Shown here: piece by piece, positions 20,848 to 63,282 of the stretch
Layout: every line of letters starts with the position of its first letter
Position numbering within the stretch: the stretch's first letter is position 1
Assembly (NCBI GenBank): GCA_027596195.1
Contig: JADGJG010000022.1
Coordinates: 1-64,000, forward strand
Length of the DNA: 64,000 bases
Direction of reading: 5' to 3'
Origin: Podochytrium sp. JEL0797
Lineage: Eukaryota; Chytridiomycota; Chytridiomycetes; Chytridiales; Chytriomycetaceae
The notes under the pieces: generated by a model
Database searches by the model: none
Seen by the model: the letters and a program-made list of their open reading frames with translations, nothing else
Told to the model about the DNA's origin: nothing
Position numbers and translations under genes: made by a program

Positions 20848-23065
20848 TCACCAATCTCCCGGAGTCAAAACATCCGTAACCAGAACCGTCATTTTCTCAG
20901 CACCCTCCGGCACCAACGCTTTGAAATAAGCCTTCTGTCCCAGCACACCTCTCTCTCGAATCAGCGTCGCAATCACTCCAAACTCGGGTTCAGTTGGCAA
21001 AATCGTCTTTGTGAAACTGCGTTCCTTGTCATAAACTAGCATAGGCAACCTTTCCGACGCCATTTGAATCTTGACTGTACGCACACGCTCCGATTTCCCA
21101 GCAGTCGCCTTCATTTGCGCCGCCTTCCGCGCGTCAAACGGCATAATCTGAGCATTTTCCACATTCAAAGTGACAGTCACGATATTGGCCTTCTTGCATT
21201 CGACCTTGTGCCCCCCCTTTTTCCAATCCTCCGTCTGGCATTTGGTCGTGCAATAAGCAGCCGTCAAACACCCCAAACAAATCTTGAGCGAAACCGAGTC
21301 CGATTCAGGAACCCCACAGCACGAGCACCCGCGAGCGGGAGTGGAAGCGGCGGTGTCGCGTTGTCTGGTCGTTTCGACTCGCGTGAGGACCTGGAAAATC
21401 GAAGGACGCGTGCGCGCAATGTTCCAAGGTTTAGTTTCTTCGTAATCAGCCACGTGCGGGTCGCATCCGTATTGGACAAGGAGTTCAACGGATTCTTGAG
21501 CGCCGCCCATCACGGGTTCCATGAGTGCTGTGCATCCGAAACGATTCTGAATTTTGGCGGAAGCTCCTGCCTTGTTTTGGAGCGGTTTGAATTAGTTTGA
21601 ATATCCAAAAAAAGGAGCATCAACTCTCACCTCCAAAAGAATCTTGCCGATTTTCAACGTGACAAGGTTACTCAAGTGCCCCGTAGCATAGAACACAGCC
21701 GTATTCCCAATCACACATCTCGCATTCAATTGAGCCCCCTTCTTGATCAACCATTTCGCACAAGCCGCATGATCCATCCAAGACGCCAACTGCGCAATCT
21801 GTCTCGCGCCCTGGATCGTCAACATCAACGGTGTAAACCGCATCTTGCTGGCTCGCCATTCGAGCATGCTCCATTCCGCATTCTCTTTCAACCATTTGAT
21901 GTCGCCCATGAAACACTTTTTGTGCAGCAACGGACATCCGTCGGGGGGATCAAAATCCATTCCCTCGGCCCAATCGCTGCGCAGAATCTGAGCGAGGTGA
22001 GACTTGTAAGGAGTCTGGTCGCCGTCCTCGGGAAGAAACGGAACCGACGTGTCCGCGAGAGAGGGATCCACCACACACGCCGCCGCGTCGAAATTTCGGG
22101 GAACCGCAGGAGCATCCCCCAACACCATCCTCTGGTGCAACTGATCGGCAAGCCGGTCCATCATACTCACGGCGCCTGAAGTCGAGGGTCCTCTCAAATC
22201 CGCATGACGAGCCGTGAACGTGTCAAATTCTTTGGGACCCCGGCGTTGATTCAGGAGGTTGTATTTCTCGGTCGCGGAGGGGAGGAAGCGCTCGTCGCCG
22301 GTGGGAAACTCGCGTTTGAACTTGTTGGCAAGGTCGAGCCAGAATTTGGCTGCGTCGATGGAGTTGCGTTCGAGGAGGGCGAGGGTAACCATCGCAAAGA
22401 CTCCGGCGTGGTTTTGACTTCCCTTCGGGTTCAGATGGTAAAGCTTCTGACCCACGTCAATGACTTGATCAAAGGCCTTGTTTCCGAAAAACAAGCAGCA
22501 TTGGTTCGAGAGGGTTTTTGGACATGCGGGGTTGAGGTCCAAGGAGGCTTTGAGGTCGACATTCATTTCGCGGTGGTTTTGGAGCAGAGCGTGGAAGGAG
22601 CTTCGCAGGGAAAGGATGGCGGCCAGTTTGACCTTGTCGTTGCGATCGAGGGCCTTCTGTGCCTGAATGGCATCGCCCAGGCTGCGGATGGCCATGGAGC
22701 TCTGCATGCTGAAGAAGCAGATTCCAGCCTGGACAACGAGGAGGTCTGGGCGCACGGCAAGGTCGTTTTCGCAGGCTTCCATGTTTTGGAGGAGCAAGTC
22801 GCAGGCAGCCTGGCATTTGATTGAGTGAATATAGTTAAGGAGAATATAGCACACTCACGAGGTTGCGAAGGGCATTCTGCGGCAGCTTCGAGTCGATGAG
22901 GAAGCTCCGGGCAGCAAGTTTGACACTCGCAGCGGGATCCGTGGTCGCACACGCCTCGGCAAACAGGGAATTAACATCGATGGATGCGTGGACAACCTCG
23001 GGTGCTGTGGCCTGTTGAGGAGTGCGGGGTTGTCGCTGGCGCTGTGCCTTGTTTTTTTTGGTCAT
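20848..23065 (-). CDS. MYND zinc-finger protein with helical and ankyrin-like repeats
   Basis: Three exons (23065-22859, 22809-21631, 21570-20848) give 702 residues. After a basic N-terminus there is a TPR-like helical half (residues about 60-270). Ankyrin-like repeats follow across the second intron (RFTPLMLTIQGA, NTAVFYATGH, FGCTALMEPV, ESVELLVQYGCDP). A MYND finger lies near residues 520-565 (CSCCG, CLGC, AYCTTKCQTEDW, HKVEC). MYND fingers bind proline-rich partner peptides. No SET domain is seen, so it is not an obvious methyltransferase. The C-terminal 130 residues are unassigned. It overlaps nothing and ends before the Cys-rich cluster. Confidence 0.85.
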
Positions 23066-33934: not shown

Positions 33935-34948
33935 TCATGCCTCCACCTCCCATCCCATTGGCACACAAACAGTCCTCCCCACTGTCCTCGAAAAACACAT
34001 GGTCACCGTCACATCCACCATCGCTTCGGCCCCGTGCACCACCTGCACGGTGCCTCTCTGCACTTTGCCAGACTCTGTCGCAATACGCGTGATATTAAGC
34101 GCACTCGCTGGCAAACTCGGCAAACCGAACGCCGCTGTCTCATGCACGCCTTCCTCTGTGCGCGCGCATTCGCGATGGTGTTCGGATTCCCAGTCAGACG
34201 CTTGACACAGCGGGGAACAATACGCGACACAGTGGCATCCTTCACAGGCCGTGAGTGTCACATTTTGACTCAACGGAGATGCGCCGCACCAAAAGCACAC
34301 AGTCAAGCTCGTGCAAGTCTGCTCTGGAGTTGGTTTCTTCAAAATCACCGTTCCACAAGTTTTCAACTTGTCCGCGTCCACTTGCAGCGTATGGTTCAAG
34401 ACAATGCATTCGTCCTCAACAGTGCTGTACAGGTAAGCATCGCAGATTTCGGGCATGTTCAAAAAGAAGGAAATGAGCTGGGCCATTTGCTGCTTGTGCG
34501 CAGGGTCGCGGATGGGAGGCAGTGGGAGCGGCGGGTCGATCTTTTCTGCGGCCATGATGAAATCGAACGGGAGCGATTGGAGGGCAGCAGCAAAGTCTTT
34601 GAGCTGGGTAATCTCGGATTTCGTGAGCGCGCAGACGGCGAGTCGTGTCGCGTTGGCCAGGAACCACCATTTGGGACTCGTGGTCGATGCAGTGGGGAGC
34701 TTAACGCCCCAGAGTTGAGGGGAGTCAAAGAGACATTGTTGGGCGAGGGTGGTTGGTGAAAGGAGGTTGGCAGTTGTGAGGGATTTGAGCCAGGCGGTTT
34801 GGAACTGGGTGACTGTCGCGGCGGAGGGGGTCACGCCCATCCACATGGATTGCGGGATATATTGCTTGAATCCAGATCCAAGGAGGAGGCCGATGGGGAG
34901 GTCCGGGGGTGAAGGGGGGGGAACAGGGATGTCGGAAGCGGTGGCCAT
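33935..34948 (-). CDS. MYND zinc-finger protein
   Basis: Single exon, 337 residues. A Pro-rich start is followed by about 200 residues of mixed fold and then a MYND finger near residues 222-262 (CFWCG, CEGC, AYCSPLCQASDW, HHREC). All seven Cys and the His of the finger are visible. The last 70 residues show weak similarity in style to the end of the MYND protein at 20848 (GKVQRGTVQVV next to a conserved hydrophobic strand). No catalytic domain is recognised. The start is the ATG before ATASDIP; further upstream the frame is open but Cys-rich and unlike protein. Confidence 0.8.
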   Translation of the reverse strand: MATASDIPVPPPSPPDLPIGLLLGSGFKQYIPQSMWMGVTPSAATVTQFQTAWLKSLTTANLLSPTTLAQQCLFDSPQLWGVKLPTASTTSPKWWFLANATRLAVCALTKSEITQLKDFAAALQSLPFDFIMAAEKIDPPLPLPPIRDPAHKQQMAQLISFFLNMPEICDAYLYSTVEDECIVLNHTLQVDADKLKTCGTVILKKPTPEQTCTSLTVCFWCGASPLSQNVTLTACEGCHCVAYCSPLCQASDWESEHHRECARTEEGVHETAAFGLPSLPASALNITRIATESGKVQRGTVQVVHGAEAMVDVTVTMCFSRTVGRTVCVPMGWEVEA

Positions 34949-35294
34949 ATTGATCGACTTGGAAAAAAAACAAAAAACACTTTCTCCCACCCAACACCCA
35001 CCCACTGCCCTTAATGGTAAAAAACAACACGGCCGAAACAATCGGTTTGGAACACGTCATCCCGGTCACATCCAACCTCGATGTTCTCACTCAAATTCCA
35101 CCTTCAGTTGCGAACAACGCGGGCGGAATTCTGACTCTCTTTCTCTCTTGTCCTTTCCTTCTTTTCCATTTCTTTTCTTGGTTCTGCATTGGTTCTGCAT
35201 TGGTTCCGGTTGTTTGTGGCGGAGGCGGAAAATGGTTTTGCCCAGTGTGTGATTCATCGCGCCACTGCCAGAATCATCACCAAATCACACCAAA
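34949..35294. other. Divergent intergenic region
   Basis: 346 bp between the starts of the MYND gene and the FMN-binding gene. Pyrimidine-rich around 35130-35180. An open frame starting near 35014 is discounted because it overlaps the downstream gene in another frame. Confidence 0.5.
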
Positions 35295-36014: not shown

Positions 36015-36216
36015 TGAATAAAGCAGAGTTTGATCGAGAGAAGTGCAGCGCTCGAATACGCGAATGACGAACTCATATGAGCGGGTGGTGATGAAATATG
36101 TTGAAAATTGGAGTCAGGCAATGCTGAATGGCGTGTGCTTATCATTCAGCGCGTGCCCGGACCACCATTTCTTTGGTGGCGACAAAGCTGTCGCGTGCCC
36201 TCGCTCTTATTTGGCG

Positions 36217-36222
36217 CACGTG
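36217..36222. promoter_or_regulatory. CACGTG box upstream of phosphatase 1
   Basis: CACGTG, 55 bp before the ATG at 36278, within a block conserved in all three phosphatase promoters (CGCGTGCCCTCGCTCT just upstream). In yeasts CACGTG is the Pho4 site that induces phosphatase genes during phosphate starvation. Confidence 0.55.
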
Positions 36223-36277
36223 ATGCGTGGCTTGGCAAATAAAGGCTAGGCTTTTTGAACAAAAAATCTTTGAAAAA

Positions 36278-37330
36278 ATGCACGCGATCGCAGCTATTCT
36301 CACCATCTCGGCTGCCTTGACTGGACTCGTCGCTTCTGCCCCGCTGGAGCGCGACGCCACCTCGTGCAGGTAAACTTCGCCCTTTCCACGCACTTCCTAC
36401 GAATGGATCCCACACTGTTCGCCCACTCAAAATCCCATACCTTCACAGAGCGATCCAAAACTACATGGTTATCGTATTGGAGAACGAAGACGCGCAGGAC
36501 GTTCTTGCCGACCCATACTTGGGCGGCGATCTTGCGTCGAGAGGATACCTCATGACCAACTACAACGGCGTGGCCCACCCTTCGCAGCCAAACTACATCG
36601 CCATGGTTTCTGGAAGCACTAATGGGTGCCACGACGACAACAATATCAACATCAACGCTGTGAGTGACCGGAACTCGCAGGAACTCGGCATTTTGACGTT
36701 TCTGATTCGAGTATTTTGCACACAGAAATCCGTCGCTGATCTGTTGGAAGCCAAGGGCCTCTCCTGGAAGAACTATGCCGAAGGATATCCCGGAGGCTGT
36801 TCGCTCGGATCTGGGTACACCACTGACGGTCTCGTTTACCGCCGCAAGCATGTTCCCTTCATCTCGTTCACCAACATCCAAACCCAAGCGACCCGCTGTG
36901 CCAAAATTGTCCCCGCCAGCCAGCTTGACCAAGACATCGCTTCCGGAACGCTTCCTTCGTACATGTTTTACACACCCGACATGAACAACGATGGCCATGA
37001 CACGAATATTCCCACCTCGTCTGCCTGGTTGCAAGGATTCTTGGAACCGTTACTTATGAACCCGTTGTTCGCCAACACATTGTTCCACATTGTGTACGAT
37101 GAATCCTACACGTCGTATGTATCTTGGATGGAGGTTCAAAATTTTTGTTCAAACTAACCATCGGAAAATTAGATTCTCTCTTCATTGGAGCCGGAATCAA
37201 AGGCGCAGGAGTTACGGATGACACGCCCTACGACCATTATTCTGGCCTCGCCACTGTGGAGCAGATCTTTGGCCTCGGAAACCTCGGGTTGAACGACGCC
37301 ACCGCCAACACGATTCCATTTGCTTGTTAA
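36278..37330 (+). pseudogene. Acid phosphatase-like gene 1 with damaged 3' end
   Basis: Exons 36278-36369, 36449-36659 and 36726-37114 parallel copies 2 and 3 and encode a signal peptide, VIVLENEDAQ, HPSQPNYIAM and DMNNDGHD. A 17-bp stretch that ends exon 3 in copy 3 is missing here, so the splice donor GTATGT directly follows ACGTC. Splicing to the intact last exon (37173-37330) then runs out of frame and stops early; reading through also stops at 37156-37158. The final 52 codons, ending in FGLGNLGLNDATANTIPFAC, are therefore stranded. The catalytic core is intact, so a shortened protein might still be made. Labelled pseudogene with that reservation. Confidence 0.65.
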
Positions 37331-37705
37331 AAACAAGATTTAGCGCGTTTCTATTCGAATAAAATCGCCCGGAGCTGGCCTTCAACTTTTTCTTTGTCAA
37401 TCACCTCCATCCTCGCTTTTTAATTAATTGTCCGAAAATAGAAAAGGGTCGAGATCAGAGTTGAGGTATTCAAGGAAGCATTCAGGGCAGAGAGACGACG
37501 AAGAAACGTGTTGAAGACTCGGAGTCACGCGGAGTGGCACGTGCCACGAATCTTGCGTGCCCCAGTCCACCTTATCCTAACGCGGTATCATGCAGCGCGT
37601 GCCCAAGTCCACCAAAAAATAGCTCGCGTGCCCTCGCTCTCATGTGGTGCACGTGATGTCTGCCTTAAAAGCAGATCCATTCGGCCAAAGAATCAGTCAC
37701 CAAAA
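37331..37705. promoter_or_regulatory. Promoter region of phosphatase 2
   Basis: Contains the 3' flank of copy 1 (TTTCTATTCGAATAAAAT), a palindromic GGCACGTGCC at 37536-37545 and the conserved CACGTG at 37650-37655, 50 bp before the ATG. The flanks of the last match those in copies 1 and 3. Confidence 0.55.
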
Positions 37706-38728
37706 ATGCACGCAATCGCAGCCGTTCTCGCCGTCTCAGCCACTTTGACTGGACTCATCGCTTCTGCCTCAGCTACTCCATGCGGGTAAATCTCTCCTCC
37801 TCCCAAGCGCTGGATCCGCCACTGTTTCCCCTTACTCAAAATCCCATACTTTGACAGGGCGATCCAAAACTACATGGTTATCGTATTGGAGAACGAAGAC
37901 GCGCAGGCCGTTCTTGCCGACCCATATTTGGGAGGCAATCTTGCGTCGAGAGGATACCTCATGACAAACTACAACGGCGTGGCCCACCCTTCGCAACCAA
38001 ACTACATTGCAATGGTTTCCGGAAGCACCAACGGGTGCACCAACGACAACAATATTAACATCAAGACTGTGAGTGATCAGAACTCACCATTTTGACTTTT
38101 CTGATTCGAGTATTTTGCGCACAGAAATCCGTCGCTGATCTGTTGGAAGCCAAGGGTCTCTCCTGGAAGAACTACGCTGAAGGATATCCCGGAAGCTGCT
38201 CGCTTGGATCTAGCTACACCACCTACTATCGCAAGCACGTCCCCTTCATATCTTTCACCAACATCCAAACCCAAGCGACCCGCTGCGCCAAAATTGTCCC
38301 CGCCAGTCAACTTACCAAGGACATCGCTTCCGGAACGCTTCCTACGTACATGTTTTACACGCCCGACATCAACAACGATGGCCATGACACAGACATTCCC
38401 ACTTCGTCTGCCTGGTTGAAAGGTTTCTTGGAGCCGTTGCTTGTGAACCCGTTGTTTTCCAAGACATTGTTCCACATTGTGTACGATGAGTCTCACACGA
38501 CGTCTCCCAACAAGATTTGTAAGTTCATATTATTTTTTGAGTGCACTCAATTGCTAACTGGAATGTTCAGACTCTCTCTTCATTGGAGCCGGAATCAAGG
38601 GTGCAGGAGTTGCGGACAACAATGCTTACACCCACTATTCTGGCCTCGCCACTGTGGAGCAGATCTTTGGCCTCGGAAACCTTGGGTTGAACGATGCCAC
38701 TGCCAAAACGATTCCATTTACTTGTTAA
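37706..38728 (+). CDS. Secreted acid phosphatase, phosphoesterase family, gene 2
   Basis: Four exons (37706-37785, 37858-38068, 38125-38518, 38571-38728) encode 280 residues. Exon 1 is a signal peptide (MHAIAAVLAVSATLTG). The rest matches the fungal phosphoesterase family PF04185: VIVLENEDAQ (metal-binding Glu), GVAHPSQPNYIAM (nucleophile region), NCAK-like and Cys-containing surface loops, DINNDGHD (metal site) and IVYDES. These enzymes hydrolyse phosphomonoesters outside the cell to supply phosphate. Compared with copy 3 it lacks four residues (GLV plus one) at the YTTYYRKH loop. All residues I can match to the active site are kept. Confidence 0.88.
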
Positions 38729-39189
38729 AACCATGCTTTGCGTGTTTTTATTTGAATAAAACTTTCCGGAGTTGGCCCTCAGTCTTTCTTTTCTTTTGTC
38801 GGGTTTGTCCGATTCAAGTTGCTACCACCTTTTCCTTGTCCGAATATATATAAAAGGGTGCAGAGAAGAGCTGATAATTCTAGAACGCAACATTGTTGGC
38901 CCTGGTATTTCGGGTGTTCAGCAGCATCCCGGGCAGGTGCATGAGAGGACGACGGCGAAACGTGTTGAAAACTCCGAGTCACGCGGAATGGCACGAGCCA
39001 CGAATTCGCTTGGTCGTTGTCACGCAGCGCGTGCCCCAGTCCACAAATCCTTGCGCGGCATCATGCAGCGCGTGCCCAAGCCACCATTTCTTTGGTGGCG
39101 ACAATGCTGTCGCGTGCCCTCGCTCTTATTTGGTGCACGTGACTTTTGCTTTAAAAGCAGAGCCATTGGCCAAAAAATCATCCACCAAA
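38729..39189. promoter_or_regulatory. Promoter region of phosphatase 3
   Basis: Carries the copy-2 3' flank, an inverted repeat CCACC..TTT..GGTGG near 39080-39097 (also before copy 1 near 36162-36179), the conserved CGCGTGCCCTCGCTCT block and CACGTG at 39136-39141, 48 bp before the ATG. A TATA-like TTTAAAAG lies between the box and the start. Confidence 0.55.
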
Positions 39190-40223
39190 ATGCACGCAAT
39201 CACAGCCATTCTCGTCATCTCAGCCACTTTGACTGGGATCGTCTCCTCTGCCCCAGCTATCCAATGCAGGTACTCTTTTCTCATCCCGCGCACCGGATCC
39301 GCCACCACTGCCGCCCACTCAAAACCCCATACCTTCACAGAGCGATCCAAAACTACATGGTTATCGTATTGGAGAACGAAGACGCGCAGGACGTTCTTGC
39401 CGACCCATACTTGGGCGGCGATCTTGCGTCGAGAGGGTACCTCATGACAAACTACAACGGCGTGGCCCATCCTTCGCAGCCAAACTACATCGCCATGATT
39501 TCTGGAAGCACCAACGGGTGCCACAACGACAACAATATTAACATTAAAACTGTGAGTAATCGGAACTCGCTATTTTGACGTTTCTTATGTGAGTTTTCTG
39601 GCGCAGAAATCCATCGCTGATCTGTTGGAAGCCAAGGGCCTCTCCTGGAAGAACTATGCCGAAGGGTATCCTGGAGGCTGCTCACTTGGATCTGGATACA
39701 CCACCAATGGTCTCGTCTACCGCCGCAAGCATGTTCCCTTCATCTCATTCAACAACATCCAAACCCAAGCGACCCGCTGTGCCAAAATTGTCCCCGCCAG
39801 CCAGCTTGACCAAGACATCGCTTCCGGAACGCTTCCTTCGTACATGTTTTACACACCCGACATGAACAACGATGGCCATGACACGAATATTCCCACCTCG
39901 TCTGCCTGGTTGCAAGGATTCTTGGAACCGTTACTTATGAACCCGTTGTTCGCCAACACATTGTTCCACATTGTGTACGATGAATCCTACACGTCGTCTC
40001 CCAACAGCATTTGTATGTATCATGCCGTTTTGAGTGCACTCAATCTTACCATTTAAAACGTCCAGACTCTCTCTTCATTGGAGCCGGAATCAAGGGTGCG
40101 GGAGTTACGGACAGCAATTCTTACACCCATTATTCTGGTCTCGCCACCGTGGAGCAGATCTTTGGCCTCGGAAACCTCGGATTGAACGACGCCAACGCCA
40201 AAACGATTCCATTTACTTGTTAA
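39190..40223 (+). CDS. Secreted acid phosphatase, phosphoesterase family, gene 3
   Basis: Four exons (39190-39269, 39341-39551, 39607-40012, 40066-40223) encode 284 residues. The exon plan is the same as copy 2, with identical exon 2 and exon 4 lengths. A signal peptide (MHAITAILVISATLTG) is followed by VIVLENEDAQ, HPSQPNYIAM, DMNNDGHD, IVYDES and a Cys-terminal end. It is closer to copy 1 than to copy 2 across exon 3, where a long stretch is almost identical, suggesting recent duplication or gene conversion between copies 1 and 3. Likely an extracellular phosphatase induced by phosphate shortage, as judged from the promoter boxes. Confidence 0.9.
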
Positions 40224-40624
40224 AAAACTTCAAATCATGCTTTTACGTGTTTCTATTTGAATAAAACTTCCCGGAGCTGACACCTCAGCCATAGACACAT
40301 TTATTTTTGGCCCGCCAACCCGCGTTTGCAAGCTCTTCCGCATGGCCAGATCCACGCTTTCGACACGCTTTATCTGTTGAGCAGGGCGAAGTGTTGCTCT
40401 CTTTTGCGTAAAACTACTTCACATTGACTTAAATTCTTTTAAAATATTTAATTTAAAAATCCGCCTTACGAAGGAGGGGGAAAGGGGGGATTGACACCGA
40501 ATAATCAATCAAATTATTGGAATCTGAAATACGAGATCCCCTATGGTCATTATAGCATCTATGGAAGAAAGCGTTAAAATAAAAAAAAAGTCGTCAGACT
40601 TGTCAAAACAACGTTCAAAAAAGA
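40224..40624. other. Gene-free, AT-rich stretch
   Basis: About 400 bp with the 3' flank of phosphatase 3, an AT-rich block near 40430-40460 and a short A run just before the next start. No gene is supported. Confidence 0.5.
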
Positions 40625-45029: not shown

Positions 45030-45606
45030 TCACTCCTTCATGGCTTCCTCCTCGTCGCCATTCTCGTGCCGCCTCGTGGCAAGATTCGCTTTCCACAGCA
45101 CCCCTTTTCCGCAAAAGTCAGCCCGCTTTGAAGAATCACCGACAACAAAAAGAGGTACCTTGATGCCTTAGCGCATACACGAACGCAGACACAGAGTCCT
45201 TCTCGCTGACGGGTTGTTCGCTAAAGTGTTGCTGGATGGCTGCAATCAGGTCTTCGCGCCGTTGCAGGCTTTGGGCCGATCGCAGGCCTTCGATGCGGCT
45301 GGTTTGGGTGCGGAAGCGGGGAATCAGCATCGACGGATGGGTTCGAGGTGGTACATGTGGGCAGTTTGTTACCAGTATCGTCGCAGTGTAGCGTCGTCAA
45401 CCTGTTTTCGAATAGAATGTCAGTGAGCAGGGGGTGATTCGAAATAGGAAGCGAGAGGGAAGGAAGCCAGTCTGTCCTGGCACGCGCTGGCTGAGTTGTT
45501 CATCCATAAGCATCGAATCGTGTGTTGGGCGTGGCGCGGCCGTGGGCGGTTCCAACCTGCGAGAAGTCCATCGGAAGATTTTTTGGACTTTTGTCTTGCT
45601 CGGCAT
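45030..45606 (-). CDS. SAP30: SAP30-like Sin3-binding protein
   Basis: The conserved part is exons 45401-45373, 45298-45159 and 45103-45030. It reads VDDATLRRYC, RREDLIAAIQQHFSEQPVSEKDSVSAFVYALRH, the SAP30 Sin3-binding helix pattern (LRRY, ..L...V..HF, V.EKD....FIY). SAP30 is a subunit of the Sin3/HDAC corepressor complex in the nucleus. The second of these introns is required because a stop follows RRYW otherwise. The first exon is less sure: an ATG at 45606 with a donor at 45483 gives 41 residues and a total of 121, shorter than animal SAP30. An alternative first exon could add an N-terminal zinc finger. Confidence 0.75.
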
Positions 45607-46947: not shown

Positions 46948-46999
46948 CCGAGTCTGCAACGACAAAATAAAGATTGGCTTTTATTACACTTGTGAATGA

Positions 47000-49900
47000 T
47001 CATTTGACGAATGAGAATAGCTGATGTTTCTTGGAGATGGAATTGGCCGCTACTGCAGTCGAATCGCTCCTTGAACGTTTCCGTGTGCGTCTTTCGACAA
47101 TCGACGCGTTTTCTGACACAACACTTGGTGCTCTTTGTTCCTGAGATGTCTGGAAGTCAGAATCAGTTGAATTCGATGCAAAAAATTCAAAAGAGAATAC
47201 AAACCTTGAATAGCTTCAAAAGCGCTCCAAACTGTTTCCCGCATGTCAAATCCCTCAACTCATGCGACCCCAGCAGCAAACTCCTGTACAACCTCTTCGC
47301 AGCACTGGTGCTAATTTGAATGACGCGTTTCTCCACATTCCTCCCTTCCATTTTCGCCAACAACTGCTCCAAACGAACGTCAACCAGCTCAGCTAAAATC
47401 TCGTTGGCACCCGCCGCCTCCTCCTCACTGCCAACGACATCATCAAAGCAGATCTCAGCATCAACTCCATACAGCTCACGCAAAGCGGCGAAAATCCGCT
47501 TGACAGCATTCCAAGCGCCAAGCTGGTCCTGATTCAAAACGCACCCAACAACCAACAAACCCAACGCTCCAACCACTTCGATATGAGTATTCGTTCCGTG
47601 AAGATGCGCGAATGTGTTCACGGCGCATAACGCGTATACCTTGGCGAGATGCGCTTCCTCTGTCATTTCTGCTCGCTGCGTCGTCGTTGGAGAGATATCG
47701 TGGGTATATTGTTGAACCAGGTATTGCGCACGAGACGCGTGGGTACATGCAAGGAGCATGTGCTGACGCGCGAGTTCCGGGGAGCTGTAGTGCGTCTTGG
47801 TTGGGGTATGTCGGGTGGCGAAGAAGGAAAGAGATTTCTGAAGAGTTTGGATCGCAAGATCATGAGATGAGAGGGTACAAGTGTCATCGCGGCGGGTCAA
47901 TAAGAAAAGTGTTGGGAGGGGTGGGGAAGGTTCGTGAATGAGTCGCGACGCGATCAATCCGGTGAGTTCCATTACTGGGGCGATAGCGGATTCATTGGCG
48001 GGTTCGATTTCGAGGAGTGAGAGGAGGGCGGTGAATGCGTGCAAAGACTCTCGATAATGCTTCAAACGGAAGAGGGACGTGGCGAGTTGACGAAGGGAGT
48101 TGCAGAGGGGTTCCAAGTATTGAGGCGTGGCGGATGAAATACCCGTGAGGTGTTGTTGGATGTGGATACACGATTGAATGAATTGGTCCGCGGCTTCAAG
48201 GGTTTCGTGGAGTGTGGTGGCCGAATCAGACAACGATTTGAAAAGAAGGGTAACGGCGGAAACGATTTCGAAGAGGGGAGTTCTCGTCGCGAGTTTGAGA
48301 ATCGACGCGTGAAGATCTGCGTGTGAGATGACGTATGCTTGTTCGCTTCCAATAACTGCGGCGTGTTCGAGACGGAGAAACAGCTTGGAATGAAGCAAGT
48401 CAATCGCTTGTTGGACAATGCGGTTTCCAGAACTCAAGCCAAGATGCTGTCGGAGCAGAGAACTAGTGACTGGGCGGGCCGGCGACACGAAGCAAATGAA
48501 TTCCAAGACACAAACAGCAGCGCGTCCCAAAGCCCCGTGCCTCTGCAGCAAAGACTCAATCGACAGATGTGTGAGGTATAGAAGTGGGTCTTCATCCTCC
48601 GGTGAACTGCTCGCAGAACTGCTGCTCTCAGTCAAAACAGGTGTCCCACCCCGGCTGGTCCCACCAATCGCGCTTTCCCCCTCCAAATCAGACTTCACAA
48701 CCAGCATACTCTGCACAAGCTCCAAGCAGGTGCCCTTCTCCAAGTCCAAGAATGACTTCACCAATGCACTGTAAAGCGCATCACCGCCCGTTTCCTCCAC
48801 AACATGGTTCACGCTCGAAAAGTCGACATTCTTCTCCCTCTTGGATCCCTTCTTCCAAAACATAACCTCCAAATCATCCTCCAATGGTGTGAACTCCATC
48901 GGAATCAGCACAGTGTGTCCCGTCGATTTCCTCGCAAACGCTTCGAAACCAGCGTAGTCCTTCATGGTGATTACCACATGGCCACTGAGCGCAGGGACAC
49001 CCTTGAACAGAAAATCTAATACTGCCATGCTCCGAGCTCCATCCAACACCAGGAGATATCGTCCCGTCGTGTGTTGACTCAACCACAGGCAAAACTTGTC
49101 CTTCAACTCATCCTCCCCCGCTGTTACACTCACACCAATCTGGAGTTGAGTCAACACACCACGTAGACTTGAAACAATCGATTCGAGACAGAGGCACGAG
49201 ATCCAGAACACGTTGGAGCGGTACCGTTTCTGAATTGTGGTTGCGTCTTTGAGGTATTCTTCGACGACGCGCGTTTTTCCAGCTACGGGGCCATAGATGA
49301 TGGCCAGCATGGGGTGCGAGTAGGTGACAAAGTTTTTCGAGAGTGCTTTGAGTTCGCGCGAGTGGAGGAAGGTCGGGTTGGCAGGTGCAGGAGTGGATGT
49401 GGGGGTCGTGCTGTCAAAGATACTATGGAAGGACGGGGACGCGGAAGCAGCTGGAGCAGATTCAGATGCAAGGTGACCATCGTTGTCGTCGCCGTCCAAG
49501 TCCGAATCCGAATCCATTTCGGACGGAGTGAGTTGAACGGACTCCGTGTCACTGTCGTCAAGAGTGATGAAATTCGTCTTGGACACTGCACGACAAGCGG
49601 CTGGGGAACTGAATGTGGACGGCTTTTGAGGAGTGGGCATCCGAGGGTGGAAAAAGTCACGAGGCGAGTAGTGAGAATCCAACGAAGCACCTGATAAAAA
49701 TTGCGTGAGAAAACATAACACAACTGAAGAATTTCTTGATTTTACTTCTGCGGAATTCAGACTGCGAAAAATCGTCGGAAACAGACGGACAAGTTGGGCT
49801 CAAGCAAGGAGTGTCGCTTGAAGGAGAAACGCCCCGCAGTGGCTCAAATGAGCACCCCGATTCCAGCTTCAGGGAAAGAGGACTATCATCTGGCGTCAAG

Positions 49901-50733
49901 AAGTCAGCGTGGTGATCAGCTGGAGCCGGCGTGTGGAGGAAGTGCGGCTTCACTCGCGACATTGATTGGACGTTTTTGTTTGTCACTTCTAATGGAATCC
50001 AATTAAAGGCAATCACTCGATCCAATTCCAACAAATGGAATACAAATGAATCGTACCAGTGTCCGAGGCGTGGTTGTTTGTATTCTGGGTCACGTGTTGA
50101 ACCCTGGTGATCGAGGGCACACCCCAAGAAGACTTGTCACTCTCCGATCCAAGCAAACCCACTGTCTCAAAACTAATCCCATCACTTTCTGGGGTCACCC
50201 CGACCACCCTTCCGTCGTTGGAGATACCGAAAGGCTCTGGAGCCGACAGTCCAGGCACCTTGCCAACAAGAAAGGATTCCCGTGAGAGTAGAGTTTTCAC
50301 AGCAATGGTTGAACCACAAGAGACTTGTTTTTGGTCGTTAGGGGTGCAGGTCGGACGCTTTTTTGTTTGCGGGCCAGGCCTCATGTCCAAGTCGGCCGAT
50401 CTTGGTGATGCCGGGCCAGAAATCAGGAAGCTAAATGGCAGAGAGGCGGTGGCCGAGATCTTGCCCGATTCACATAGTGTGGAAACCTCGGTTGAGTAGT
50501 GGGGAGAACTGGTGGCAAGACTGGAATTTTGGAACGATGGCTGGACAGGACTGGGTCGCAGCGCGGTCTTGAATGGATAAAATCTTGAAGCTTGGACTGG
50601 TTTGGGAGTCTCCTCCGTAGAGAGTGCCCGTGGGTTCGTAGCAGAGACGTGACGTGCTGCTTGTATGAAACACTTTGTTAATAACGTAGGGAAGACGATA
50701 AGAGAGGAACCTACCAAGCTGGCTGTTAGTCAT
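47000..50733 (-). CDS. NLR-like STAND NTPase with TPR-like C-terminus, copy A
   Basis: Five exons (50733-50715, 50659-50057, 49988-49746, 49690-47205, 47140-47000) encode 1163 residues. The first 400 or so are Ser/Pro/Thr-rich and disordered. An NB-ARC-type module follows: AIIYGPVAGKT P-loop, VVEEYL, VFWISCLCLES, Walker-B RYLLVLDGA, HVVITMKD and LEVMFWKK. Then come a winged-helix-like part (RAAVCVLEFICFVSP) and helical TPR-like repeats (SLRQLATSLFRLKHYRESLHAF, LARQHMLLACTHASRAQYL). The tail is basic (RRTRKRSR), resembling a nuclear signal. The P-loop has one residue fewer than GxxxxGKT. Proteins of this layout in fungi act in non-self recognition and regulated death; that role here is inference. 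The tiny first exon is supported by phase in both copies. Confidence 0.83.
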
Positions 50734-51147
50734 TTGAGTTGTTGGAGCAGTGGTTTGTTGGTTTCTTGGTGAATCACGAGTTGCTTGGTGTTCTGAGTTT
50801 GTAAGCTTTCTCGGTCAGTATTCATTTGAAAGCGATGGGAACGCGGCAGGCGCGCCAATTCAGACAGGCAATTTCAGACCCAATACCTTGCTTTGTCTGC
50901 AACTCACTGGGGTAAGACTTGAAGCGGCTGTGCGGGGGGCTAGTTTGCGAGGTGACCACCGAGATTTTTCGGTTGATTTTTGTTGGCATTGAGGGCAAGG
51001 ACTGATTGGAAAAACGAGCGTGTGATGATAACCGAATGGAATTCTCTCTTTTCCATATTCTCAGTCAGTCTTGTGTATAACTAAACACTGTGACGGGACA
51101 CCGAGCCAACTCGCCCTTCGCTCATCCTGTGAAAATCCAAATTGCAA
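50734..51147. promoter_or_regulatory. Divergent region of unit 1
   Basis: About 410 bp, closely matching 55110-55530. In unit 2 it lies between the NLR-like gene and intact derlin; here it faces a derlin remnant. It presumably still serves copy A. No gene is seen in it. Confidence 0.5.
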
Positions 51148-51318
51148 ATGACACCGTTGGAAGAATGGTTTTATGAGCTCCCCATCATCACCAGGACATA
51201 CATCACACTGGTGTTTGCTGAAACCATTGCTAGTGTGAGTACTTGACCTGCCCCTGAGACTGGGATATTGACCAACGAGACAGCAACTTGACTTTGTCAA
51301 TCCATACCAACTGCACTT
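51148..51318 (+). pseudogene. Truncated derlin 5' fragment
   Basis: Contains derlin exon 1 (MTPLEEWFYELPIITRTYI...), its GTGAGT donor, the short intron and the first 15 or so codons of exon 2 (QLDFVNPYQLH), then breaks off. The next base begins the second duplicated unit. It still differs little from the intact gene (one Cys to Ser change at the exon-1 end), so it is young. Confidence 0.92.
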
Positions 51319-51383
51319 CCGAGTCTGCAACGATAAAATAAAAATTGGCTTTTATTACATTTGCTGAATGAGCAGTTGAGCAA

Positions 51384-54300
51384 TTAGAATAACTGTTGTT
51401 TCTTGGAGATCAAATTGGTCGATGATGCACTCGAATCGCTCCTTGAACGTTTCCGCGTGCGTTTTTCAACTATCGACGCGTTTTCTGTTGCAACACTTGG
51501 TTTCCCCAATTCTCTTTGTTCCTGAGATGTCTGGAAGTCAGAATCAGTTGACTTCAATGCAGAAAAAATATCAAACCTTGAATAGCTTCACAAGCGCACC
51601 AAACTGTTTCCCGCATGTCAAATCCCTCAACTCATGCGACCCCAGCAGTAAACTCCTGTACAACCTCTTCGCAGCACTGGCGCTAATTCGAAAGACACGT
51701 TTCTCCACATTCCTTCCTTCCAGTTTCGCCAACAACTGCTCCAAACAAACTTCAACCAGCTCAGCTAAAATCTCGTTGGCACCCGCCGCCTCCTCCTCAC
51801 CGCCAGCGAGATCATCAAAACAGTTCTCTGCATCCACCCCGAACAGCTCACGCAATGCGACGAGAATCCGCTTGACAGCGTTCCAAGCGCCAATCTGGTC
51901 CCGATTTAAAACGCACCCAACAACTAACAAACCCAACGCTCCGACCACTTCGACATGAGTACGCGTTCCGTGAAGATGCGCAAATGTGTTCACGGCGCAT
52001 AACGCGTATCCCTTGGCGAGATGCGCTTCCTCTGTCATTTCTGCTCGCTGCGTCGTCGTTGGAGAGATATCGTGGGTATATTGTTGAACCAGGTATTGCG
52101 CACGAGACGCGTGGGTACATGCAAGGAGCATGTGCTGACGCGCGAGTTCCGGGGAGCTGTAGTGCGTCTTGGTTGGGGTATGTCGGGTGGCGAAGAAGGA
52201 AAGAGATTTCTGAAGAGTTTGGATCGCAAGATCATGAGTTGAGAGGGTACAAGTGTCGTCGCGGCGGGTCAAAAAGAAAAGTGTTGGGAGGGGTAGGGAA
52301 GATTCGTGAATGAGTCGCGACACAATCAAACCCGTGAGTTCCATTACTGGGGCGATAGCGGATTCATTATTGGCGGGTTCGAGTTCGAGGAGCGAGAGGA
52401 GGGCGGTGAATGCGTGCAAAGACTCTCGATAATGCTTCGAACGGAAGAGGGACGTGGCGAGTTGACGAAGGGAGTTGCAGAGGGGTTCCAAGTATTGAGG
52501 CGTGGCGGATGAAATACCCGTGAGGTGTTGTTGGATGTGGATACACGATTGAATGAATTGGTCCGCGGCTTCAAGGGTTTCGTGGAGTGTGGTCGCCGAA
52601 TCAGACGACGATTTGAAATGAAGGGTAACGGCGGAAACGATTTCGAAGAGGGGAGTTCTCGTCGCGACTTTGAGAATCGACGCGTGAAGATCTGGGTGTG
52701 AGATGACGTATGCCCGTTCGCTTCCAATAACTGCGGCGTGTTCGAGACGGAGAAACAGCTTGGAATGAAGCAAGTCAATCGCTTGTTGAACGATTCGGTT
52801 TCCAGAACTCAAGCCAAGATGCTGTTGGAGCAGAGAGCTGGTCACTGGACGGGCCGGCGACACGAAGCAAATGAATTCCAAGACGCAAACGGCGGCGCGT
52901 CCCAAAGCCCCGTGCCTCTGCAGCAAAGACTCAATCGACAGATGTGTGAGGTACAGAAGCGGGTCTTCCTCATCAACCGAACTGCTCGCACTACTGCTGC
53001 TCTCCGTCAAAACAGGTGTTCCATCCCGGGCGGTTCCACCAATCAAACTTTCCCCCTCCAACTCACTCTTGACAGCCAACATACTCTGCACAAGTTCCAA
53101 GCAAGTGCACTTCTCCGTGTCCAAGAACGACTTCACCAACGCGCTGTAAAACGCATCTCCACCCGTTTCCTCCACAACATGGTTCACGCTCGAAAAGTCG
53201 ACATTCTTCTCCCTCTTGGATCCCTTCTTCCAAAACATAACCTCCAAATCATCCTCCAATGGGGTGAACTCCATCGGAATCAGCGCCGTGTGTCCCGCCG
53301 ATTTCCTCGCAAACGCTTCGAAACCAGTGTGGTCCTTCATGGTGATTACCACATGGCCACTGAGCGCAGGGACACCCTTAAACAGAAAATCCAATACTGC
53401 CATGCTCCGAGCTCCATCCAACACCAGGAGATACCGTCCCGCCGTGTGTTGACGCAACCACAGGGAAAACTTGTTTCTCAACTCTTCCTCCCCCGCGGCA
53501 GCACTTACACTAATCTTGAGTCCAGTCAACATACCACGTAGACTTGAAACAATCGATTCGAGACAGAGGCACGAGATCCAGAACACGTTGGAGCGGTACC
53601 GCTTCTGGATGGTGGTTGAGTCTTTGAGGTATTCCTCGACGACGCGCGTTTTTCCAGCGACGGGGCCATAGATGATGGCCAGAATGGGACGCGAGTAGGT
53701 GACAAAGTTTTTGGAGAGTGCTTTGAGTTCACGCGAGTGGAGGAAGGTCGGGTTGGGGGTTACAGGAGTGGACGTGGGGGTCGGAATTTCAAAGACGCGT
53801 TGGAAGGATGGGGTCGCGGAAGCCGCTGGAGCAGATTCAGGATCAAGGTTTCCCTTGATTTCGTCGTCGTCCGAATCCGAATCCATTTCGGACGGAGTGA
53901 GTTGAACGGACTCCGTGTCACTGTCGTCAAGAGTGATGAAATTCGTCTTGGACACTGCGCGACAAGCGGCTGGGGGGCTGAATGTGGACGGCTTTTGAGG
54001 AGTGGGCATCCGAGGGTGGAAAAAGTCACGAGGCGAGTAGTGAGAATCCAATGAAGCACCTGATTAAAATTGCGTGAGAAAACATCGCCCAAATGAAGAA
54101 GAATAACTAGATTTTACTTCTGCGGAATTCGGACTGTGAGAAATCGTCGGAAACAGACGGACAAGTTGGGCTCAAGCAAGGAGTGTCGCTTGAAGGAGAA
54201 ACGTCCCGCAGTGGCTCAAATGAGCACCCCGATTCCAGCTTCAGGGCAATTGGACTATCATCTGGCGTCAAGAAGATAGGGTGGTGGTCAGCTGGATCCG

Positions 54301-55109
54301 GCACGTGGAAGAAGTGTGGCTTCACTCGCGATGTTGATTGGACGCGGTTGTTTGTCACTTCTAATGGAATCCGAGAAAAGTTAATCACTCGATCTAATTT
54401 CAACAAAAACGAATAGAAATGAATCGTACCAGTGTCCGAGGCGTGGTTGTTTGTATTCTGGGTCACGTGTTGAACCCTGGTGATCGAGGGCGGCGCACCC
54501 CAAGAAGACTTGTCACTCTCCGATCCAAGCAAACCCACTGTCTCAAAACTAATCTCATCACTTTCTGGGGTCACCCCGACCACCCTTCCTTCGTTGGAGA
54601 TACCGAAAGGCTCTGGAGCCGACAGTCCAGACACCTTGCCAACAAGAAAGGATTCCCGTGAGGGTAGAGTTTTCACAACAGTGTTTGAACCAGAAGAGAC
54701 TTGTTTTTGGTCGTTAGGGGTGCAGGTCGGACGCTTTTTTGTTTGCGGGCCAGGCCTCATGTCCAAGTCGGCCGATCTTGGTGATGCCCGGCCAGAAATC
54801 AGGAAGCTAAATGGCAGAGAGGCGGTGGCCGAGATCTTGCCCGATTCACATAGTGTGGAAACCTCGGTTGAGTAGTGGGGAGAACTGGTGGCAAGACTGG
54901 AATTTTGGAACGATGGCTGGACAGGACTGGGTCGCAGCGCGGTCTTGAATGGATAAAATCTTGAAGCTTGGACTGGTTTGGGAGTCTCCTCAGTAGAGAG
55001 TGCCCGTGGGTTCGTAGCAGAGACGTGACGTTCTGCTTGTATGAAACACTTTGTTAATAACGTAGGGAAGATGATAAGAAAGGAATCTACCAAGCTGGCT
55101 TTGAGTCAT
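51384..55109 (-). CDS. NLR-like STAND NTPase with TPR-like C-terminus, copy B
   Basis: Five exons (55109-55091, 55035-54430, 54360-54118, 54059-51577, 51521-51384) encode 1162 residues. The plan is identical to copy A: disordered N-terminus, NB-ARC-type module with the same short P-loop GPVAGKT and Walker-B LLVLDGA, winged-helix-like part, TPR-like helices and a basic tail (KRTRKRSR). All frames, splice sites and motifs are intact in both copies. Differences cluster in an acidic patch after the TPSEMDSDSD stretch, in part of the NTPase (LTGLKISVSAAAGEEEL against LTQLQIGVSVTAGEDEL) and in the last exon. The far N-terminus and middle are nearly identical. In copy B the main intron before exon 3 can be read through, but splicing keeps agreement with copy A. 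Confidence 0.83.
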
Positions 55110-55530
55110 TTGAGTTGTTGGAGAAGTGGTTTGTTGGTTTCTTGGTGAATCACGAGTTGCTTGGTGTTCTGAGTTTGTACGCTTTCTCGGTCAGTATTCA
55201 TTTGAAAGCGATGGGAACGCGGCAGGGGCGCCAATTCAGACAGGCAATCTCAGACCCAATACCTTGCTTTCTCTGCAACTCACTGGGGTAAGACTTGAAG
55301 CGGCTGTGCGGGGGGTTATTTGGGGTTTGCGAGATGACCACCGAGATTTTTCGGATGATTTTGTTGGCATTGAGGGCAAGGACTGATTGGAAAAACGAGC
55401 GTGTGATGATAACCAAATGGAATTCTCTCTCTTCCATATTCTCTATCTGTCTTATTTATAACCAATAAACGCTCTGAACAGACACCGAGCCACTCGCCCT
55501 TCGCTCATCCTGTGAAAATCCAAATTGCAA
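55110..55530. promoter_or_regulatory. Divergent region between NLR copy B and derlin
   Basis: 421 bp separating the two start codons, duplicated in unit 1. Likely a bidirectional promoter. A TATA-like TTATTTATAA lies near 55452. No gene is seen. Confidence 0.5.
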
Positions 55531-56598
55531 ATGACACCGTTGGAAGAATGGTTTTATGAGCTCCCCATCATCACCAGGACATACATCACACTGGTGTTTG
55601 CTGAAACCATTGCTTGTGTGAGTACTTGACCTGCCCCTGAGACTGATATTGACCAACGAGACAGCAACTTGACTTTGTCAATCCATACCAACTGCACTTT
55701 TCCTATGACCTGATCTTTGTCGGGCATCAATATTGGCGGCTTCTCACGAGCTTCTTGTACTTTGGGGGACTCTCCATCGACTTCTTGTTCCACATGTTCT
55801 TCCTGTGAGTTGTTTGTTTGATTTCTTCTAGCCTGGCTACTGACCCCTCCCCCATAGCGTGCGGTATTCCCGATCTCTTGAAGACGGATACTTTAGAGGA
55901 AGAACTGTTGACTTTGCGTGGATGCTGATGCTCTCGATGGCCGCCATTGTGGTGAGTGCCCCCAAATCGCCCCCAGCCAATCACAAATCGACACCTTCAC
56001 TGATCTTCGTTGTCAGACCATCACGCCCATCTTCTCTCCGAAAGCAAATTCAATTCCCTTCTTGAGTTCCCCGCTGAATTTCGTGCTGATTTACCTTTGG
56101 TCTCGAACGAACCCGACTGTGATGATGCACTTTTTTGGCCTGTTTGTCATCTCCGCGGCTTACCTCCCGTGGGTTTTCCTGGGATTCTCTTTGATTGTGC
56201 ATGGAGTCTGGCCCACAGCAGACCTCGTTGGTCTGATGGTTGGCCACACCTATTTTTTCCTGGACGACATCTGGCCGCGGGGTGGAGGCGCGGTTGTGGC
56301 AGGAGTGCGAATGGAACGACCGCGTATTGTTCGCGCTCCTGCAATTGTGAAGCAGTTGGTTGCGGTTGATTTCGCTGGAGGCAGAGGGGCTGGTTTCGGT
56401 GGCGTCGACGCGAATTTGCCGGTTGCGGAGTTTGGCGATGAGGCGCAAGAGCCTTTTCAAGCTGTTCCGGGTGCAACGGGGGACTACGAAGTTTGGAATC
56501 CTGATGGTGGTGATCATGCTGCGAATGGGTCAGAGAGTACGAATGCGAATGAGCTCAGACGGCGCCAAACTGAGGGAAACCATGAGGAGGAAGATTGA
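55531..56598 (+). CDS. DER1: Derlin, ER-associated degradation membrane protein
   Basis: Four exons (55531-55617, 55665-55804, 55858-55951, 56017-56598) encode 300 residues. Derlin features in order: LEEWFYELPIITRTYI, PYQLHFSYDLIF, the WR motif in YWRLLTSFLYFG, RYSRSLEDGYFRGRTVDF, YLWSRTNP, FLPWVFLGFSL and a GHTYFFLDDIWP segment. There are about six membrane spans and no rhomboid Ser/His dyad, so it is a pseudo-protease. Derlins help move misfolded proteins out of the ER for Cdc48 and proteasome handling. The C-terminal tail (about 75 residues) is longer than usual and acidic; no SHP box was clearly seen. The NLR duplication breakpoint lies in its exon 2. Confidence 0.94.
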
Positions 56599-61535: not shown

Positions 61536-61611
61536 ATGTATAAAAAGGAAATAAAATTCAATTTCAACTTATGTAAAAAGCTTGCAAAATTCATTTCGTT
61601 TATAAGCTTTT

Positions 61612-63282
61612 ATGCAACAACGAGGCGTGAAAATAGTAATGATCAAATCTCCTTCGAGCACACCGGCCATGGACCGGCAATGGTCCCTCGCAGGGCGTTT
61701 TGAATTTCAACGCAGCCCCATCGTGGAATCCACCAAAAAGCTCCGGATCCGGCCCCCACGGCTCACGACTTGCGAGAACGACAACATGTTTCTGACCATT
61801 TCAGCACCCAGCCCGGTCCAGACTATGCCTCCTCAGCACCTGCCGCTCCCGTCCGAAAAGTGTGCGGACGCTTCGCCCCACACGACGGAAACGTTCCACT
61901 CGTTCGTGTTGAGCAGCTTGGAAAGGAGTTACTCTGATCTAGCCACCACCAATCCTCAAGAAAACCCAAGAATATCTCAAGAAGAGAAACCAAGAATCCG
62001 AACCGAACGCACTTCCTCCATCGTTCGCCGCCGCAACAAGACTCCCGCCGCGCCACTCGTCCAACCGCCACTGGAACCACCCCGTCTACGCACGGCGGTC
62101 ACTTCAGAACCGGTCTCACCAGTTTTACCCTCCATGACGTCAAGATCGTTCACGGACCAACCGTCGTCCTTTTCGTCGCCCGTGAATTCGTCTCAATCGA
62201 GCTTGTCGCGTCCAACTCGCAGCGGTGGTGGTGGGATGACGCCGTCTCCAACTCCTACTGCTGGGTTTCTCCTACCGGTTTCTTTACCTCCACAAGCTTT
62301 GGAGCCGAATTCTACGACCGTTGCTGCTCCCTCCCACTTTTTCCGAACCGGCATTCCAACCAACAAGACCGCATTCGCCGAATACATGATGAAAACGACC
62401 CACCCCTCCACTACTCCCGAGAGACGTCCTGTCCCGCAGAAACCCAGTGCACCACCTCTGGCGGCAAGCCCCGCTTCAGCACCCACAAAACACTCCTTCC
62501 GGTCCTTGACCGAATGTCCAAACGCATCCACCCAAACTTCTTCATCGTCCGTGGTTCAAAGGGACAGGATGAGTCAATCTGCTTTTGTGGCGTACATGGC
62601 GCAACGGTCTGGTCCACCAGCGGTGGTGGCGTCTCCTCCCCAAATGGCGATTCCACGTACAAGCACCGACTCTTGTTCCACGCAACGCGAAAGTGTGGAA
62701 TCTGGGGACACGGTGTTGTCCAAAACAATTGAGACAGAGTCACAACAAGCAGGTGCAATGGACTTGTCAGTGCCACGGTACGCGATCGTGAATCACACTC
62801 AGCTCGGGTCCCCCGTTGCTGCATCTACCAGCTCTCTTTTCGGGTGGAAACGCGCATCAGTAGTGGGAGGTGTGAAGCCGATGGTGTGGACGCAGTTTGT
62901 GCTCGTTGGGATGGAGGGACTTTTGTTTCTGTATCCGGTTCCGAAACGCGGTGGTGCAGAGGGATGGTTTAAAACACTCGCTAGTGGGGGGATGTTCGCA
63001 ATGACCCAGTGCGGACGTGACGCGATGAAGCAGCGGCGAGAGGTTTCGATGGGGGTGTTGAATAACTTGCCGTATGCGGTAATGGAGGTGACGCGGGATT
63101 CAGATGCTGTGGTGGAGGAAGGGGTGGGATTGTTTACGCTGCAGGTGATGGGGACGGTGGTGAGGAAGAGTGTGGGTGGGGTGGAAACGAGAGTGGAGGG
63201 GGTAAAGTGGTTGGTGGAGTGTGATGGGGAGGAATCCATGCGCGAGTGGACGCGATATATCCAGGCAGTTTCGAAATTATGA
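61612..63282 (+). CDS. Ser/Thr/Pro-rich protein with PH-like C-terminus, member 2
   Basis: Intronless, 556 residues from the first ATG; an ATG at 61669 (before DRQWSLAG) is an equally good start. A long Pro/Ser/Thr-rich region with two similar short blocks (KTAFAEYMMKT and QSAFVAYMAQR) leads to a C-terminal PH-like domain: WTQFVLVGMEGLLFLYPV, GLFTLQVMGTVV and a final SMREWTRYIQAVSKL helix with the PH Trp. Only 76 bp separate it from member 1 on the same strand, suggesting tandem duplication. Confidence 0.72.
   Translation: MQQRGVKIVMIKSPSSTPAMDRQWSLAGRFEFQRSPIVESTKKLRIRPPRLTTCENDNMFLTISAPSPVQTMPPQHLPLPSEKCADASPHTTETFHSFVLSSLERSYSDLATTNPQENPRISQEEKPRIRTERTSSIVRRRNKTPAAPLVQPPLEPPRLRTAVTSEPVSPVLPSMTSRSFTDQPSSFSSPVNSSQSSLSRPTRSGGGGMTPSPTPTAGFLLPVSLPPQALEPNSTTVAAPSHFFRTGIPTNKTAFAEYMMKTTHPSTTPERRPVPQKPSAPPLAASPASAPTKHSFRSLTECPNASTQTSSSSVVQRDRMSQSAFVAYMAQRSGPPAVVASPPQMAIPRTSTDSCSTQRESVESGDTVLSKTIETESQQAGAMDLSVPRYAIVNHTQLGSPVAASTSSLFGWKRASVVGGVKPMVWTQFVLVGMEGLLFLYPVPKRGGAEGWFKTLASGGMFAMTQCGRDAMKQRREVSMGVLNNLPYAVMEVTRDSDAVVEEGVGLFTLQVMGTVVRKSVGGVETRVEGVKWLVECDGEESMREWTRYIQAVSKL

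Follow-up and report, generated by a model that had tools for sequence, protein, structure and literature searches.

Two adjacent, closely similar genes in a chytrid fungus raise a double question: how did they come to lie side by side, and do they encode proteins of the NOD-like receptor (NLR) kind? The pair lies in a stretch of 64,000 nucleotides (hereafter the window) on a contig of 85,127 bp in the assembly of Podochytrium sp. JEL0797 (Chytridiomycota, Chytridiales; 24.4 Mb in 995 contigs), a source that agrees with the early-diverging fungus suspected in the original prediction, which was made from the DNA letters alone. Among the papers listed by literature searches, none deals with the locus, and the strain name JEL0797 was not met with in those checked for it. 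The account that we favour, and hold to be reasonably probable, is that these are tandem-duplicated genes of the STAND class (signal transduction ATPases with numerous domains) with a divergent NB-ARC domain, whose products would act as NLR-like switches.

A tandem repeat with a breakpoint in a Derlin intron

Within the window, nine repeat families run in direct orientation with a spacing of 4369-4383 bp. Base-by-base alignment delimited two units, which abut exactly and leave no gap, with the junction inside a Derlin intron:

46948-51318, left repeat unit, 4371 bp, carrying copy A
51319-55699, right repeat unit, 4381 bp, carrying copy B
51148-51318, plus strand, orphan Derlin 5' piece (exon 1 and part of intron 1), in the left unit
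55531-56598, plus strand, apparently complete Derlin (DER1) gene

The right breakpoint of the duplication falls inside intron 1 of the Derlin gene and the other just 3' of the NLR-like gene. The last long open frame of the Derlin gene matches DER1 (E=2e-20), and a DNA search of the genome with this gene returned only the gene itself and the orphan 5' piece. Judged by the sequence, abutting units together with an orphan Derlin exon are the pattern expected from one tandem duplication event, and the two direct repeats of about 4.4 kb that had been predicted correspond to these units. A tandem of this kind might also arise in the assembly if two alleles or haplotypes were joined head to tail, and the fragmentation into 995 contigs lends that idea some weight; we regard it as very improbable, as the left and right flanks differ within a single contig of 85,127 bp, the junction falls in a Derlin intron and leaves an orphan exon, synonymous divergence reaches 0.19 in the NTPase region, and a degenerate third copy is present elsewhere in the genome.

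This third family member, C912:206-838, is a broken fragment near a contig end with 83-84% DNA identity to copies A and B. Its two stops and one frame change led us to reject it as a working gene, and its presence means that the family has had another copy. A segmental duplication shared with C912 was likewise rejected: between the first 10 kb of that contig and the window's first 57 kb there is no other DNA match, and a single neighbouring gene gives a weak protein similarity (E=0.001).

Gene models, coding constraint and probable sequence exchange

Each unit carries one gene on the minus strand:

47000-50733, minus strand, gene A, 1166 aa, five exons (50715-50733, 50057-50659, 49746-49988, 47205-49690, 47000-47149)
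51384-55109, minus strand, gene B, 1165 aa, five exons (55091-55109, 54430-55035, 54118-54360, 51577-54059, 51384-51530)

The introns of both genes are GT-AG, 46-69 bp long, and lie at the same sites in identical phases. Gene B stops four codons before gene A by way of a substitution, and an AATAAA follows the stop codon in both copies, 14 and 27 bases on. Two intact genes with all five exons and splice sites kept had been predicted, at 1163 and 1162 residues, and this picture holds, the 3-residue gap to those models probably reflecting splice choice; the predicted differences between the copies in an acidic patch, part of the NTPase and the last exon are all present.

The public annotation differs. 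Protein HDU98_004859 is identical to copy A over part of exon 3 and all of exon 4, starts at an exon 3 methionine that is absent from copy B, and splices exon 4 of copy A onto a SAP30-like gene about 1.8 kb downstream (SAP30_Sin3-binding, window 45033-45404, minus strand; PF13867, E=2e-11). We rejected this fusion: it would need an intron of about 1.8 kb, against 46-69 bp for the others, and each copy ends in a last exon of its own, with a stop codon and an AATAAA after it. The public join is considered a prediction error.

Over 4375 aligned columns, which include a few bases beyond the units, the copies differ by 296 events, and their coding identity is 93.7%. Substitutions fall 61/55/104 on codon positions 1/2/3, and all four internal coding indels (3, 3, 6 and 9 nt) are multiples of three. 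The comparison of synonymous with non-synonymous differences that had been proposed as a check, made here as a pairwise Nei-Gojobori estimate between the copies, gave a ratio of non-synonymous to synonymous divergence (dN/dS) of 0.45 overall (bootstrap 0.35-0.62). Broken down by part, the ratio ranges from 0.27 in the NB-ARC region and 0.29 in the spacer/winged-helix part to 0.67 in the last exon and 0.69 in exon 3, with the C-terminal helical part (0.42) and the linker (0.52) in between. By these measures the two genes are intact and under coding constraint. Purifying selection was not detected in exons 1-2 (1 synonymous versus 13 non-synonymous differences, P=0.13), and the case for reading them as coding depends on an in-frame indel and on the open frames that cover them. 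These frames span 238 codons in copy A and 332 codons in copy B, lengths with a chance of about 1e-5 and 1e-7 per frame in random sequence, and that of copy B continues through intron 2 and exon 3.

Divergence is distributed as a mosaic. Synonymous divergence (dS) is 0.19 in both the NB-ARC part and the spacer/winged-helix part and near zero in exons 1-2, where one of 158 synonymous sites differs (about 17 expected from the gene average), against 25 of 150 in the NB-ARC part. The longest identical run measures 228 bp, a length reached in none of 5000 random placements (maximum 202), and the five longest runs total 807 versus at most 545 in such placements, while the 3' segment 46940-47113, in which most of the last exon lies, shows 15.4% difference events. 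Because the clustering is seen at synonymous sites as well, it is not accounted for by protein constraint. The simplest reading that the pattern suggests is an older duplication after which gene conversion between the copies made stretches alike again, with conversion as the likely cause of the mosaic. The duplication had been described as fresh; we rejected this in view of the dS of 0.19 and the divergence of the 3' segment.

The NTPase domain and its flanking regions

The following features, all on the minus strand, bear on what the two proteins are:

48636-49373, predicted divergent NB-ARC domain of copy A (about residues 395-640), hhalign 92%, Pfam E=0.02
53011-53748, predicted divergent NB-ARC domain of copy B (about residues 394-639), hhalign 88% alone, Pfam E=0.061
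49272-49301, P-loop of copy A, IIYGPVAGKT, identical in B at 53647-53676
49029-49058, Walker B-like stretch of copy A, YLLVLDGARS, identical in B
50057-50659, exon 2 of A, Ser/Thr/Pro-rich N-terminal region, with genome matches to A and B only
48003-48104, best TPR-like unit of copy A (residues 818-851), TPR_2 E=0.043, below cut-off

For the nucleotide-binding (NB) part of either copy, NB-ARC was the sole Pfam family reported (24,736 models, maximum E 10). Because the standard search gave no accepted match, a profile was built from bacterial domains: a motif scan gave at least 118 contig stretches, from which 98 domains were excised, and 75 of these were kept after removal of those more than 70% identical, and NB-ARC was the top Pfam family, above cut-off, in 10 of the 10 templates scanned. 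Against this profile, hhalign returned a score of 52 and a probability of 91.9% over 209 columns, in a collinear alignment that begins ahead of the P-loop, takes in Walker B and sensor 1 and reaches the GLPL position; copy B alone reached 47.7 and 88.1%. In the controls, 400 column shuffles peaked at 25.5, the reversed sequence scored 14.9 and 31 open reading frames (ORFs) of the window peaked at 22.5. A home-made hidden Markov model (HMM) of the 75 domains gave 14.5 bits for the NB part of A and 13.5 for B, with 2000 shuffles of A peaking at 7.2. In a further control on real ORFs (700 of 1157 without the seed motif, duplicate loci included), A and B scored 50-53 over 195-210 columns with probabilities of 85-92%, and 23 NB-ARC-like proteins scored above 140.

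Several results weigh against an NB-ARC assignment. The Pfam NB-ARC scores (PF00931) of 14.6 bits for A and 13.0 for B lie under the 23.5-bit cut-off (E=0.02 and 0.061; 0.2 for exon 4 of B). With full-length A, Pfam did not report NB-ARC at E up to 10 and gave two weak families only, and a PF00931 scan of the organism's own genome did not list the copies. When the HMM was run on 1263 ORFs of at least 250 aa, 866 scored; true NB-ARC proteins reached 62 bits and more, whole ORFs of A and B 11.2-14.2, and three other ORFs fell within that range (12.5, 12.1 and 11.4). In the real-ORF control, L136 (28 columns, 93.7%) and L021 (48 columns, 94.2%) scored 55-56, above A and B, and five more ORFs reached 39-45, four over 24-43 columns and L108 over 135. 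Since ORFs with short alignments score as high, A and B stand apart by alignment length and not by score alone. Beyond the domain itself, profiles of the bacterial TPR region (26 of 200 shuffles as high) and of the bacterial winged helix (123 and 119 of 200) gave no match.

Could the likeness to an NTPase then be fortuitous, an orphan protein that happens to contain GKT? The sub-threshold Pfam scores and the two short-alignment ORFs that outscore the copies point that way, as do the searches of NCBIfam and PADLOC, without a match for either protein, and of PDB sequences, without a relevant one (a single unrelated weak match, malate dehydrogenase, E=1.6). We consider chance likeness improbable, given 209 collinear columns and a score of 52, where 400 shuffles peaked at 25.5. 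Searches of 5.8 billion proteins retrieved, at the sensitivity available, nothing but the two copies themselves; this kind of search requires several shared exact 5-residue words (7994 candidates were scored in one search) and, by our estimate, could miss relatives under about 40% identity. NACHT was rejected as the nearer type by a weak test, copy A having no match to a profile of three NACHT-type proteins from the same genome (107 of 200 shuffles scored as high). The profile comparison thus makes NB-ARC ancestry of the NTPase very probable, and 'NLR-like' is fair as a statement of ancestry. The NB-ARC-type NTPase that had been predicted is borne out as a divergent one, with the qualification that, of the profile checks against STAND folds, the hhalign alignment supports it and the Pfam match stays under its cut-off.

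At the motif level, the sensor 1 and GLPL positions read VVITMKD in both copies, without the arginine, and GGDALYSAL or GGDAFYSAL, without the proline; a VISHxDLH stretch resembles the MHD position. The P-loop GPVAGKT of both copies keeps GKT and is one residue short of GxxxxGK[ST], and so departs from the canonical Walker A. In 30 bacterial members, the P-loop GMGG.GKT is invariant (partly through selection of the set), the GLPL proline occurs in 30 of 30, and the sensor-1 threonine and arginine are each present in at least 90%. The P-loop, sensor-1 and GLPL positions are, on this comparison, degenerate in both copies. In NB-ARC, an acidic residue directly follows the first aspartate of Walker B, and NACHT has hhhhD[GAS]hDE, according to the available part of PMC12258605; LLVLDGARS fits neither pattern. 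Because the consensus of the 30 bacterial members, LLxLDNA, also lacks the second acid, this position is weak evidence of decay. As GKT is kept and the NB-ARC region has the lowest dN/dS, we infer a nucleotide-binding domain with impaired hydrolysis: nucleotide would probably still be bound, and the ability to hydrolyse it may have been lost.

On the N-terminal side, the sequence upstream of the NB domain is 35-41% Ser/Thr/Pro. No Pfam family reaches its cut-off in exon 2 or exon 3, in keeping with the earlier remark that no known effector domain is seen there, and neither Pfam nor the genome search recognised an N-terminal effector or amyloid signalling domain, amyloid motifs having had no dedicated scan. 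A Ser-rich spacer follows the NB core. The C-terminal 350 residues of A have a helical hydrophobic pattern (P=0.018 against shuffles), and TPR_2 reaches E=0.043 in A and 0.093 in B, both below cut-off (crude signature P 0.01-0.08). The TPR-like helices once proposed are thus weakly supported, by one sub-threshold unit. The last exon is variable except for a basic C-terminal stretch, RTRKRSRSDS, common to both copies.

This composition is also what a nuclear transcription regulator might have, that is, an NB-ARC/TPR protein whose N-terminus is rich in Ser/Thr/Pro and whose C-terminus is basic, resembling the bacterial NB-ARC-TPR regulators known in Streptomyces and relatives. Retention of RTRKRSRSDS within an otherwise variable exon and the Ser/Thr/Pro content are compatible with it, many of the bacterial NB-ARC proteins that we fetched come from Streptomyces and relatives, and the public model, if it were right, would give copy A a SAP30 Sin3-binding domain. 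We find such a role unlikely: no DNA-binding or transcription family was matched within our gene models, the SAP30 join calls for an intron of unusual length, and copy B has no SAP30-like gene directly downstream.

Proposed function and known systems

The account that we prefer would run as follows. The ancestor was probably a STAND protein of divergent NB-ARC type, with a Ser/Thr/Pro-rich and probably disordered N-terminus and a mainly helical C-terminus. A direct tandem duplication, with breakpoints just 3' of the gene and in Derlin intron 1, would have produced two copies, which then diverged under purifying selection while stretches were re-homogenised through gene conversion. Both proteins would most likely serve as NLR-like signalling or scaffold switches, in which the helical C-terminus may sense or bind a partner, the nucleotide domain, with GKT kept and several other motif positions degraded, may hold an on/off state while hydrolysing little or no ATP, and the N-terminus may relay the signal. 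Partner sensing and any immune role are proposals drawn from sequence features.

A stronger version makes them true non-self-recognition NLRs with an N-terminal effector that has diverged beyond recognition. NB-ARC ancestry, a duplication with mosaic sequence exchange and the lack of retrieved relatives are in line with this, the UNK/NB-ARC/TPR layout is known among fungal NLRs (PMC4986451, from an excerpt), and clearer STAND genes are present elsewhere in the genome, two of them with TIR, NACHT/NPHP3_N and WD40 in order. We view this as possible though doubtful, since no effector domain and no clear C-terminal repeats were found and the C-terminal region is constrained (dN/dS 0.42) rather than diversifying. 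Equally tentative is the idea of a chytrid-own family of NB-ARC receptors or scaffolds that standard searches miss, with motifs lost, the fold constrained and the copies exchanging sequence by conversion; if true, NB-ARC-type NLR-like proteins would have existed, and become pseudo-ATPases, near the base of the fungi.

Own-genome scans gave matches above cut-off in 0 of 9 cases for NB-ARC, 3 of 20 for NACHT and 12 of 15 for NPHP3_N (on eight contigs). In C488 and C786, TIR, NACHT/NPHP3_N and WD40 stretches follow in order, as separate unspliced open frames, with TIR_2 (E about 1e-7, about half of the model) before the NTPase and WD40 repeats after it; these are clearer NLR-type genes than copies A and B. 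At C101:42193-45714, ankyrin repeats come after NPHP3_N/NACHT, and the read-through frame contains one TAG that perhaps marks an intron. TIR in chytrid NLRs has already been reported, as stated in the available text of PMC9815663.

Other features of the window stand apart from the duplicated genes. Three tandem copies of a phosphoesterase-family gene (PF04185), a separate tandem family, lie at 36141-40225, about 1.4-1.5 kb apart and 62-96% alike across the repeat families found, and two separate MYND-finger genes lie on the minus strand at 20848-21591 and 33935-35056. A long Ser/Pro-rich ORF at 61606-63282 is weakly similar to an ORF at C912:2222-2575, next to the broken third family member (30% over 142 aa, E=0.001), and at each of the two places a second ORF of this kind lies alongside.

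The locus offers a concrete case of an NB-ARC domain that is apparently real yet falls under standard cut-offs, and for that reason NLR counts made with standard profiles may be too low. A 2014 survey of fungal NLRs reported none in chytrids and named undetected divergence of NACHT or NB-ARC as one possible reason (PMC4986451, in the part available), a 2025 survey gives NLR numbers that start at one in Chytridiomycota species (PMC12258605, likewise in part), and an excerpt of PMC11291939 describes NOD-like receptors of bacterial origin in Mortierellomycota. The two copies would also allow a test of whether a motif-poor NB-ARC domain still binds nucleotide.

Among known systems, the copies most resemble the NB-ARC STAND/TPR proteins of bacteria and the fungal UNK/NB-ARC/TPR proteins (PMC4986451, same excerpt), with which they share a collinear NB-ARC of about 210 residues, a helical C-terminus with at least one TPR-like unit and an unannotated N-terminus. 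They differ from these in a P-loop one residue shorter, in the absent sensor-1 arginine and GLPL proline, in having neither a winged-helix match nor clear repeats, and in the Ser-rich spacer after the NB core. With the TIR-NACHT-WD40 and NPHP3_N/NACHT proteins of the same genome (C488, C786, C868 and C101), they have the STAND class in common, but those proteins pass Pfam cut-offs, unlike copies A and B. The original prediction spoke of a paired NLR system. The paired sensor/helper NLRs of plants are likewise two adjacent NLR-like genes; such pairs are often head-to-head and highly diverged, as the accessible part of PMC12258605 describes, whereas the present copies are direct repeats on the same strand, about 94% identical (93.7% in coding sequence), and a paired system is not supported.

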